A stretch of 64,000 nt of DNA, taken from positions 992,001-1,056,000 of the forward strand of contig NZ_PHUE01000001.1 in assembly GCF_002813295.1 (NCBI RefSeq), written 5' to 3'. The notes under the pieces were generated by a model that saw nothing but the letters and a program-made list of their open reading frames with translations, was not told the DNA's origin and ran no database searches. The translations under genes were made by a program, and so were the position numbers. This DNA comes from Flavobacterium sp. 5. Lineage in GTDB: Bacteria; Bacteroidota; Bacteroidia; Flavobacteriales; Flavobacteriaceae. Below, one piece after another: positions 13,354 through 33,662 of this stretch (its first letter is position 1; every line of letters begins with the position of its first letter).

Positions 13354-13497
13354 CCAAACCATTTGCAGGTTGGGAAATGCTCTTTTAGTTTTAATTTTAG
13401 TTTTTTAGATAATAAAATCACCCCAACCTGAATTCAATAGAAACCCGTCTTGTTCTAGTAACTTGGCGGTTTTTTATTGCTCCAAAAAAAGTATAAG

Positions 13498-13611
13498 GGC
13501 GTGCCCCCGCTATCAAAAGGGGCTTACTTATAGTACTGCTTATACAGCCCCTTTCGACAGCGGGGTCGGGCTATACGCGTTACAAGGTAACTTGCTTCTA
13601 TCCCTCACGCA
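13498..13611 (+). repeat. Extragenic hairpin repeat, family A
   Basis: GGGCGTGCC leads into a hairpin whose 19-base arms (13505-13523 and 13547-13565) pair with two mismatches. GGGTCGGGCT (13563-13572), a short variable part and TATCCCTCACGCA follow. The same ordered words occur at 6937-7025. Similar sequences are, from memory, frequent in flavobacterial genomes. The 68-residue frame across it (13463-13669) is not a credible gene. Confidence 0.65.
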
Positions 13612-13670
13612 GGCAAACGAGCGTAGTAAAAAAGTAAAAACAAACAAACGAGGTAAATTAGCAATATAGA

Positions 13671-13905
13671 GGTAGGTCGTACCAACACTATTGGTACGAC
13701 CTACCTGTCTTATTGGTGCTTCGCACCAATACTGTTGGTGTAAAATACCAATAGTACAGGTGTTAAAAGCCAATACTATTGGCCCTTTGTACCTGTGTTA
13801 TTGGTATTAAGCACCAATAACACAGGTGTTAAACACCAACAGTATTGGTGTTTAACCATAACAGTATAGGTACATAACACCAACAGTATTAGCTTTAAGC
13901 ACTTG
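13671..13905. repeat. Array of 15-bp dyads at exact 22-bp period (array 1)
   Basis: Ten 15-bp units resembling ACCAATAGTATTGGT start at 13681, 13703, 13725, 13747, 13769, 13791, 13813, 13835, 13857 and 13879. Each is separated by a 7-bp spacer, often like NTTAANC. A decayed eleventh unit may begin at 13901. Units are themselves imperfect palindromes. Neighbours can also pair: 13671-13685 with 13691-13705, 13791-13805 with 13813-13827, and 13828-13839 with 13845-13856, all perfect. No coding sequence is present. A second array of the same kind lies at 33148-33448. Confidence 0.85.
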
Positions 13906-14098
13906 TTTTTAAAAAGAAAAACTTGATTATTACCTAACAATCGCATATTCTATCCTGTACTATTGAGTAGTCAACAAAAAGAACTTCTATGTTACTTCCG
14001 AAAAACAACTATATTTGAATTAAATAATACGAAATATACTTTCGCCAATCTACCCAAAAACAGGTATAATTACGAATATTTGTTTCGCTTATAAACAA
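13906..14098. other. AT-rich spacer upstream of the AraC-type regulator
   Basis: With 13354-13670 and the array this completes a gene-free stretch of about 770 bases after the GAPDH gene. 13366-13374 and 13422-13430 form a 9-bp inverted repeat (CAGGTTGGG/CCCAACCTG) with a 47-base loop. This 13906-14098 segment itself shows nothing I recognise. Confidence 0.4.
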
Positions 14099-14112
14099 GT
14101 TAGCGGTAATTG
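14099..14112 (+). repeat. Left copy of 14-bp inverted repeat flanking the AraC-SnoaL pair
   Basis: GTTAGCGGTAATTG here matches, in inverse orientation and with one difference, the sequence at 16010-16023. It stands 7 bases before the AraC gene. Confidence 0.6.
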
Positions 14113-14119
14113 TAGCGGA

Positions 14120-14992
14120 ATGAAGACAGATATTATAAAATACGACTTTAAGACAGGACTTCCACAAGAATTTGAAATTGTGGATTTAGCTACATTGTAC
14201 CAAGAATTCAAAAATACTTTAACCACTACTCACAGGACAGGATTTTATCATATTATTTGGTTTCAGCAGGGGAATCCAACACATTTAGCAGACTTCAATC
14301 CAATAAAAATATCACCTAATTCTTTACTTTTTTTAAATAAAGACACCGTTCATCGTTTTGATAAAGAAACCAAATTTGAGGGAAAGATATTATTATTTAC
14401 GGAGAGTTTTTTCTGCAAGACGAAGACGGACACCAAGTTTTTAAGAAACACTCCTTTATTTAATGAATTGTTTTCTATTACGCCAATTCAAATTCAAAAG
14501 CAATCAGAGGTATTTGCAAATCTGATGCAATCAATGGCTGACGAATTACAAAAGACAAAAGACCATTTTCAAGCTGACATTTTACAAAATCTGCTAAAAA
14601 ACTTTCTTCTACATTCAGAACGAGAATATGAGCAACAAAACCTTTTCGAAGTTAAAAAAGGGGCTGATTTTGATATTGTGATATTGTTTAAAGACCTTTT
14701 AGAAGCCAATTTCAAAAATCAAAAGCAAGTGAATTTCTATGCCAAAGCATTAATTATTACCGAAAAACGCCTTAATCAAGCAACTTCGAAGGTAATAGGT
14801 AAAACACCAAAAGAAATTATCGACGATAGAATTATCCTTGAAATCAAACGTATTTTGGTTCACACAACCGGAAGCATCAAAGAAATTGGATATAGTTTGG
14901 GTTTCGAAGAACCAACCAATTTTATAAAATACTTCAAAAAACATTCCCAAATGACGCCTGTTGAATTTAGAGAGAAAAACTCTTTGGCGTAA
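14120..14992 (+). CDS. AraC family transcriptional regulator
   Basis: A 290-residue DNA-binding regulator. The N-terminal 150 residues resemble a cupin-like effector domain (HLADFNPIKISPNSLLFLNKD, HRFDKETKFEGKILLF). The C-terminal 100 residues hold the double helix-turn-helix: FYAKALIITEKRLNQATSK for the first, and GSIKEIGYSLGFEEPTNFIKYFKK with TPVEFREK for the second. The effector is unknown. It lies 83 bases before a secreted SnoaL-like protein gene on the same strand, and the two are enclosed by an inverted repeat. It may regulate that neighbour. Confidence 0.9.
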   Translation: MKTDIIKYDFKTGLPQEFEIVDLATLYQEFKNTLTTTHRTGFYHIIWFQQGNPTHLADFNPIKISPNSLLFLNKDTVHRFDKETKFEGKILLFTESFFCKTKTDTKFLRNTPLFNELFSITPIQIQKQSEVFANLMQSMADELQKTKDHFQADILQNLLKNFLLHSEREYEQQNLFEVKKGADFDIVILFKDLLEANFKNQKQVNFYAKALIITEKRLNQATSKVIGKTPKEIIDDRIILEIKRILVHTTGSIKEIGYSLGFEEPTNFIKYFKKHSQMTPVEFREKNSLA

Positions 14993-32540: not shown

Positions 32541-32924
32541 CTATAAATTTTCTTCTTCATCAGAATTACTATTCGATTTGATAGTATCAAATAGGATAAC
32601 TTCGCTTTCTTGATCCTTCGTTTTTCTTTCCTTGAGCTTTGTTTTTACAAATTGGACTACCATTATAAATACCATCAATAGAGCAACTAAAAAACTCAAC
32701 CCAAAAATTGCAACTGCACCCGTTACACATTTATTCCCATTCATAGTCATTCCTTTCATTGCTAAGAAAAAACTAAAAAAAGTAATAATTACTTGCATAA
32801 ATAAACTAGCAATACAAACACCTAAATAGTCTTTATACAATAAGTTATTCAAGGATTTATTACCCGAAATAATTTGAAATACCAAAGGAATAAACAATAT
32901 TAAAACTGAAACTAGTATTAGCAT
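32541..32924 (-). CDS. Small membrane protein of unknown function
   Basis: 127 residues, not recognised. Three hydrophobic segments at about 1-18, 34-55 and 68-92 are followed by a charged tail with KLKERKTKDQESE and an acidic end SNSDEEENL. Frame length, lack of overlap and the 34-base spacing to the hemolysin III gene support a real gene in a two-gene operon. Confidence 0.6.
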   Translation of the reverse strand: MLILVSVLILFIPLVFQIISGNKSLNNLLYKDYLGVCIASLFMQVIITFFSFFLAMKGMTMNGNKCVTGAVAIFGLSFLVALLMVFIMVVQFVKTKLKERKTKDQESEVILFDTIKSNSNSDEEENL

Positions 32925-33147: not shown

Positions 33148-33490
33148 CCCAATAGCAAAGATGCCTAACACCTATAGTATTGGTCATTAACACTAGTCTC
33201 ATTAGTACTAAACACCAATAGCATGGATACTTAATACCTATAATACTGACTATTAACACTAGTCTTATTGGTACTAAGCACTAATAGTACGGGTGCTTAA
33301 CACCTGTAATATTGGCTATTAACACTAGTCTTATTGGTACTAAACACTAATAGTATGGCTGCTTAACACCTGTAATATTGGCTATTAACACTAGTCTTAT
33401 TGGTATTAAACCCCCATAGTATTAGTGTTAAGCACCTGTAATTTTGTTTTAAACTCCTGTCTTATTATTTCAAAGCACCTATAAATGATA
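33148..33490. repeat. Array of 15-bp dyads at exact 22-bp period (array 2)
   Basis: Fourteen 15-bp units start at 33148, 33170, 33192, 33214, 33236, 33258, 33280, 33302, 33324, 33346, 33368, 33390, 33412 and 33434, a strict 22-bp step. The last copies to 33490 slip by one base and decay. Units resemble ACCTATAGTATTGGT, and spacers are often CATTAAC, TATTAAC or GCTTAAC-like. Three consecutive units form a 66-bp higher-order repeat: ACTAGTCTTATTGGT recurs identically at 33258, 33324 and 33390. The motif and period are those of the array at 13681-13893. Confidence 0.88.
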
Positions 33491-33518
33491 TGACAAATGA
33501 TTTTATAATACTGCATCA

Positions 33519-33662
33519 CTAGCCCTGATGGGAATGGAAAGCCTTGTGAAATAGACTTGTATTTTTTTCTTGATATAAAAGAGCGACCAACGGAAGCTCC
33601 TTTTATATCAAGAAAAAAACAAGGATATAAACAAGCTTGAAATAACAGCAGGATTAGCTCCT
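33519..33662. repeat. Extragenic hairpin repeat, family B
   Basis: CTAGCCCTGATGGGAATGG at the left and AACAGCAGGATTAGCTCC at the right enclose a long hairpin. 33556-33584 pairs with 33596-33623 almost perfectly (arms about 27 bp, with CTTGATATAAAA in the left arm). The ends are themselves weakly inverted. From memory this kind of repeat is frequent in flavobacteria. The rest of 32925-33730 is the dyad array and AT-rich spacer; the minus frame at 33406-33693 only traverses repeats. Confidence 0.65.

Follow-up and report, generated by a model that had tools for sequence, protein, structure and literature searches.

Two phased arrays and their surroundings

The window, by which we mean the entire 64-kb stretch of DNA analyzed here, is positions 992001-1056000 of a 4.97-Mb contig of Flavobacterium sp. 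5 (G000:C1:992001-1056000, where G000 is the window's own genome). It holds two arrays of a short unit, A and B, both of them solo arrays, with the following features in and around them:

13479..13660, + strand: dispersed hairpin-forming repeat element adjoining array A
13670..13706, no strand assigned: perfect 16-bp inverted repeat with a 5-base loop, at the start of array A
13681..13900, no strand assigned: array A, ten 22-bp units, each a 15-bp dyad near ACCAATAnTATTGGT plus a 7-bp spacer
13901..13912, no strand assigned: half unit and T-run closing array A, ACTTGTTTTT, read by eye
14010..14103, + strand: segment common to the surroundings of arrays A and E (79% over 96 columns)
14120..14992, + strand: AraC-family regulator gene 3' of array A (HTH_18, E 4.6e-18)
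32541..32924, - strand: ORF of 127 aa with no Pfam match above cut-off, its start ~220 bp from array B
33148..33455, no strand assigned: array B, a 22-bp unit repeated fourteen times and overlaid by a 66-bp higher-order repeat

How strict is the period? The units of array A start at 13681, 13703, and so on to 13879, exactly 22 bp apart with zero drift, and a unit profile (derived from nine arrays, A and B among them) fits best at offset 0, within a range of -3 to +3, in 10/10 units of A and 14/14 units of B. The fraction of matching bases at lag 22 is 0.59 in both arrays, compared with shuffle maxima of 0.39 for A and 0.40 for B (lags 10-40, 500 dinucleotide shuffles). The ten-unit, drift-free array of the original prediction is thereby borne out, as is its description of the units as dyads: the dyad score of A was equalled in none of 2,000 column permutations and that of B in two of 2,000. 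The prediction had also placed the same motif, period, and orientation at 33148; motif and 22-bp period do recur there, in fourteen units, but orientation is poorly defined for a unit this close to a palindrome.

Within this regularity, the first bases of unit 9 of array A (13857) deviate from the consensus. The half unit and T-run that close array A have counterparts, by eye and on the displayed strand, in six of the nine arrays of the window unit. Tandem Repeats Finder reports the higher-order repeat of array B at 4.7 copies with 84% matches, and at a score of at least 40 it lists no window array of more than 4.4 copies besides A and B. Because the 7-bp spacers are often dyads as well, an array can also be described as ~11-bp half-units in alternating orientation. 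A CRISPR array was considered and rejected: it needs unique spacers, and the spacers here are themselves repeated and dyad-like.

The helical repeat of B-DNA is 10.5 bp per turn, so that 22 bp corresponds to 2.10 turns, a phase error of ~34 degrees per unit. Exact alignment on one face would therefore require slightly unwound DNA. The predicted two-turn step thus holds approximately and the single face on condition of that slight unwinding; many paralogous arrays, described below, have a period of 21 bp.

The hairpin-forming repeat next to array A is found at a single place in the window (13479-13660), where it has no listed Rfam match. A repeat of this kind, ~130-180 bp long, lies within ~210 bp of six of the nine arrays of the window unit, the similar copies being in L031, L032, L033, L036, and L037. 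On the 3' side, the segment at 14010-14103 starts with TATATTTG (14010-14017), which fits TAnnTTTG, the Bacteroidetes -7 consensus. Its counterpart lies directly 3' of array E (G000 2916836-2917078, L033); the two segments are alike, yet the genes that follow them differ. The AraC-family gene is a candidate target of array A, and the 127-aa ORF is a candidate target of array B. A match to Flavo-1 RNA (RF01705) adjoins array B at 33517-33659, with 41.3 bits at a gathering score of 42; Flavo-1 matches also lie near the solo arrays of L237, L239-L242, and L244.

Array copies and the adjoining HTH gene family

How widespread is the window unit? A 66-column sequence model, built from 25 in-phase triples out of nine arrays, identifies nine arrays in G000: A, B, and seven more. 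Among the 150 of 3,416 first-look candidates that were scored, the next-best match scores 17.3 bits, compared with up to 55 for the arrays, and BLAST with array A led to the same sites. The unit is thus dispersed, as had been proposed. At least 11 of 398 genus genomes, our own included, match the model at E<=1e-5, and these 11 contain 34 arrays, 9 in the own genome and 25 elsewhere; such genome counts are lower bounds, as the multi-genome searches were limited to each genome's top candidates. In the other ten genomes, the units of the 25 arrays have diverged and the 22-bp register is kept almost throughout.

We next turn to the genes beside these arrays. Arrays F (3192711) and H (3362290) of G000 lie 61 and 80 bp upstream of two paralogous genes for ~120-aa helix-turn-helix (HTH) proteins:

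G000 3192313-3192672: HTH gene
G000 3361868-3362227: HTH gene

Overall, 14 of the 34 arrays of the window unit adjoin a full-length HTH match (in L107 this match lacks an ATG where the start is expected), and a further array (L102) adjoins an HTH fragment. Degraded-looking HTH copies with adjoining arrays are seen in L107 (3811-4170, no ATG), L153 (early stop), and L102 (the fragment). The window itself contains no match to HTH or P165 (a partner gene described below) with the tested profiles at E<=1e-3. Profile searches also gave neither an HTH nor a P165 match in three of the 11 array genomes (G005, G303, and G335); G335 has a short array, and G005 and G303 have long, regular ones. One solo array (L094, L099, L103, L117) is kept downstream of the same gene, which we take to be phytase-like, in four genomes, two of which (G005 and G335) are without a detected HTH gene.

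Is the array a general companion of this gene family? Members of the HTH family were found in at least 27 of 398 genus genomes with the first profiles and in at least 44 of 398 with a broader profile, a patchy spread with 1-8 matches each. The family extends to a second family of the order (at least 16 of 395 order genomes, 4 of 108 genera). We scored the 450 bp upstream of each HTH gene for its best repeat lag between 10 and 40, with shuffles of 2-base blocks. The best lag was 21 or 22 in 50 of 54 distinct loci, a set that includes the genes through which the link was found and omits L163 (gene cut by a contig end) and loci sharing identical first 300 coding bases. The upstream period exceeded all 40 shuffles in 46 of the 54, and the downstream control gave a best lag of 21 or 22 in just 6/54.

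An independent set of 37 later members, first found with the broader profile, behaved similarly: lag 21 or 22 upstream in 26/37 (13/20 and 13/17 in the two batches), above shuffles in 24/37, and lag 21 or 22 downstream in 2/37. Four of these (L281, L305, L308, and L310) had too little upstream sequence and were counted as misses; among the 33 that could be scored, seven had a lag other than 21 or 22, and two with 21 or 22 did not exceed the shuffles. Upstream lags of 21 or 22 were found in 9/9 HTH loci of the second family (seven above shuffles, downstream 0/9). Other lags (14, 11, 34) occur occasionally upstream of HTH genes. Arrays of fixed period are linked to HTH genes across distant members of the family, and, as expected of an autoregulatory operator array, they lie directly 5' of their own HTH gene in most members (50/54 and 26/37 loci). 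The wide range of periods that the original prediction had associated with an unconstrained repeat is not seen upstream of these genes. A TAnnTTTG box lies within 100 bp upstream in only 22 of 78 HTH loci, and the loci most closely related to the window type have none in that range.

What kind of protein is encoded beside the arrays? In Pfam at E<=0.01, 15 of 28 diverse members of the family matched HTH_26 (best E 1.4e-6) and 11 matched HTH_3 (best E 1.3e-7); the G000 protein of array F (L034) has no Pfam match on its own. Its AlphaFold2 model (pLDDT 80) comprises five short helices and a long C-terminal helix at residues 88-119. The top Foldseek rows for this model include HipB (E 0.006) and P22 C2 (E 0.02), with unrelated proteins also among the top rows and nothing at E<=0.001. 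At the level of the family, Pfam and Foldseek place the protein in the Cro/C1-type HTH class, and it is, as modeled, a small Cro/C1-like HTH protein with a long C-terminal helix. PADLOC rows for the HTH proteins were weak (best E 3e-4, type I specificity subunit), and we took them to be chance. The G000 HTH protein has no relative in phage and plasmid collections, and neither HTH nor P165 has relatives in viral contigs at the sensitivity of the search tool. On sequence grounds, the link between the unit and a family of predicted DNA-binding genes favors the protein-binding array that had been suggested.

In 38 of 73 HTH loci (those with <1100 bp upstream left out), and in 6/20 loci of the first batch of later members, the 3' end of P165, a gene of ~165 codons on the same strand, lies upstream of the array. 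The P165 protein is modeled, mostly with confidence, as all-helical (pLDDT 85), and has no convincing family (weak rows only, to DicB, TED, SurE, FbpB, and the like), no PADLOC match, and no fold match for the predicted structure. Comparison with toxins gave nothing convincing (HigBA at E 2.1). A toxin-antitoxin operator of the HipB/HigA kind is expected before both genes; here the P165 and HTH genes have the array between them. P165 was found in six of 23 genomes searched (three known to have HTH and 20 without): the three HTH genomes plus G010, G013, and G016, which have distant copies. Four distant P165-like hits are followed by 21-bp arrays in two cases, a 7-bp repeat in one, and no repeat in one. 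In L296 and L297 (G013 and G016), distant P165-like genes stand directly before 21-bp arrays with no recognizable HTH gene, so that the array could be associated with P165 no less than with HTH.

Unit sequences diverge widely among members of the HTH family. Across 52 arrays with a best 66-bp match of at least 0.60, offered periods of 21 and 22 only, 36 fit 22 bp better and 16 fit 21 bp; each has 4-16 phased units over about 90-350 bp, and dyad symmetry is significant (p<=0.05, column permutation) in 27/52 and not significant in 25/52. In G000 alone there are eight HTH matches, six with clear arrays of differing unit types; one is a pseudogene with a weak array (L153, 0.50 compared with shuffle maxima of 0.48 to 0.50) and one a broken copy with no array (L211). 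Besides the genes of arrays F and H, HTH genes of G000 lie at 347954 and 1392082. Different paralogs have different units. Across 43 loci (omitting L132, L133, L173, and reading frames <90 aa), array similarity is correlated with protein distance at rho -0.37 for residues 41-56 and -0.36 for residues 18-40; the coiled coil gave -0.30 and helices 4-5 gave -0.25, within the permutation range. Array similarity thus appears to follow the HTH half of the protein more than helices 4-5 or the coiled coil, in part through common descent.

Other unit types likewise have arrays elsewhere in G000, and at 16 extra array loci in three genomes (11 of them in G000) there is no HTH or P165 match within ~2 kb. 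Solo arrays share their unit with a paralog of the same genome: when 13 of the 18 G000 solo arrays were compared by profile, 11 fit one cis-array type best. Array A fits cis array F best (0.69) and B fits H (0.66), while type-2 solo arrays fit L212 (0.84-0.87) and type-3 fit L213 (0.74-0.78); D32 ties between H36 and L213, and T4_246 has no clear best type. Five of the eight G000 type-2 solo arrays are copies upstream of 16S rRNA genes and are therefore not independent. These 22-bp arrays lie ~690-730 bp upstream of 16S rRNA at five G000 rRNA operons (L237, L239-L242). The genes that flank 15 other solo arrays are tandem at eight, convergent at four, and divergent at three, with several neighbor ORFs that look spurious; we gave this mixed picture no weight.

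How do the arrays change between species? When arrays at the same locus were aligned (14 alignments), ten gaps fell inside arrays: eight have lengths that are multiples of 22 bp, and the remaining two represent a single one-base event recorded twice; among flank gaps, 2/67 are multiples of 22. Gaps of other sizes number 2 in ~3.1 kb of aligned array compared with 65 in ~10.8 kb of flank, a comparison in which pairs share loci, flanks are partly coding, and one pair (L096-L110) aligns poorly. Drift of the period in related strains, the other sign of an unconstrained repeat that had been named, is not what these gaps show. Array identity between species is 0.55-0.96, and conservation is not above that of the flanks.

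A proposed regulator and the alternatives

The finding is real and larger than two arrays: it concerns a family of HTH genes, their phased arrays, and copies of these dispersed elsewhere. The most likely reading of A and B is as phased operator arrays bound by such an HTH protein, and we consider it probable that they are dispersed solo operator arrays of an HTH regulator family of Flavobacterium and related genera. Judging by the predicted fold, the dyads, the constant phase, and a location 5' of the gene, the HTH protein would bind the array, assemble into a filament, and act as a regulator. The core locus consists of, often, a P165 gene, then a phased 21- or 22-bp array, then the ~120-aa HTH gene. 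One HTH dimer would occupy each unit, and neighboring dimers, two helical turns apart, would touch, so that the protein could spread along the array as a cooperative, phased filament; on 22-bp arrays this filament would either twist round the DNA or slightly unwind it. Bound in cis, the protein would determine how its own gene is expressed; at solo arrays, such as B or A with its AraC-family gene downstream, it would act in trans, either controlling the flanking gene or holding distant arrays together. We put forward, more tentatively, the idea of private address systems, in which each HTH-coiled-coil paralog reads its own 21/22-bp unit, polymerizes on its cis and dispersed arrays, and joins or silences those loci, with new paralogs arising by joint change of recognition helix and unit.

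Could the regularity arise without a binding protein? In a neutral minisatellite, slippage or unequal exchange of whole 22-bp units would keep the register, and copy number does change by whole units between species; 66-bp higher-order repeats occur in B and, by eye, in L116, and regular arrays exist in two genomes without a detected HTH gene. Against this, the 21/22 period is maintained across many unit sequences and specifically upstream of HTH genes (50/54 compared with 6/54 downstream, and 26/37 compared with 2/37), gaps other than multiples of 22 are scarce in arrays relative to the partly coding flanks, and the dyad is kept in about half of the arrays; we regard this explanation as unlikely. 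Alternatively, the arrays might work at the RNA level, with rows of transcribed hairpins terminating or stabilizing transcripts. Array A folds at -115.8 kcal/mol (z -13.1 relative to dinucleotide shuffles; B, z -4.1), and many window-type arrays sit, by eye, between genes of the same direction. However, z falls below -2 in 26/52 arrays on one strand and in 29/52 on the other (one value undefined), and such excess folding on both strands is expected from DNA dyads. Three arrays (L144, L154, and L188) keep the period without excess folding, the preference for G-T over A-C is only moderate (155 compared with 104 pairs), and in Rfam the arrays stay below the gathering score of every family, overlapping only weak microRNA matches. 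Because folding is symmetric between strands and some arrays lack its excess, we lowered our estimate of a role as RNA and think it rather improbable.

A mobile or selfish unit made up of P165, array, and HTH, with solo arrays as its footprints, would account for the patchy spread (44/398 genus genomes, 1-8 matches each), the fast divergence of units, the broken HTH copies, and the second dispersed repeat within ~210 bp of six of the nine arrays. This is nevertheless quite improbable: no transposase was recognized, by eye, among the listed neighbor ORFs, the searches described above found no relatives (HTH in phage and plasmid collections and viral contigs, P165 in viral contigs), and some solo arrays (L094, L099, L103, and L117) hold their position across species. 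Centromere-like or nucleoid-organizing arrays of a partition system are the least probable of the alternatives, and we give them very little credence. The pairing of a phased array with a small DNA-binding gene does recall ParR-parC, but there is no NTPase partner, P165 being predicted as all-helical with no convincing family or fold match, and a single chromosome carries many unlinked arrays, with several types of unit. The suggestion of a nucleoid-, partition-, or replication-related role thus found no support, no partition or replication gene being recognized by eye among the listed neighbor ORFs, and the linked protein being a small Cro/C1-like HTH protein.

If A and B are operator arrays of the HTH family, what follows? 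The phased arrays of Flavobacterium would gain a partner gene and a rule: most of the HTH genes found have an adjoining array, and some HTH paralogs have solo copies elsewhere. They offer a natural series of protein/site pairs for studying change in DNA recognition, a possible bacterial example of a phased nucleoprotein filament, and a route to regulon prediction from repeats that are easily dismissed as junk.

Relation to known systems

We found no description of this phased-array/HTH system in the literature, in a search that left subscription journals mostly outside. The nearest likeness in protein kind is to HipB, the C-proteins of restriction systems, and P22 C2, which share the type of HTH (Pfam, Foldseek) and have sites 5' of their own gene. 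These known autoregulated Cro/C1-type regulators have few operators, whereas here there are 4-16 phased units per array, units that vary from paralog to paralog, and dispersed solo arrays.

Two plasmid systems resemble the arrangement of site and gene. ParR-parC plasmid partition places an array of short sites beside the gene of a small DNA-binding protein; in contrast, the arrays here are chromosomal, many per genome, and no motor NTPase was found. We rejected this identification, since P165 has no NTPase or fold match and the DNA-binding protein is Cro/C1-like, not ribbon-helix-helix. Plasmid iterons are ~22-bp repeats read by a protein encoded next door, but here no replication initiator was recognized and there are many chromosomal copies. 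Iterons were rejected as well: the linked genes are those for the ~120-aa HTH protein and, at some of the loci, P165, and the HTH protein has no relative in the plasmid collection.

For the proposed multimerization, the likeness is to BldC of Streptomyces, a small HTH protein on tandem sites that is reported to form cooperative multimers on DNA direct repeats (PMC5859096). A BldC-like direct-repeat binder was rejected as an identification, the fold beside our arrays being Cro/C1-like by Pfam and Foldseek and not MerR-like. BldC is MerR-like and binds direct repeats, whereas the system described here appears to pair a Cro/C1-like protein with a 21-22 bp unit that is a dyad in about half of the arrays.
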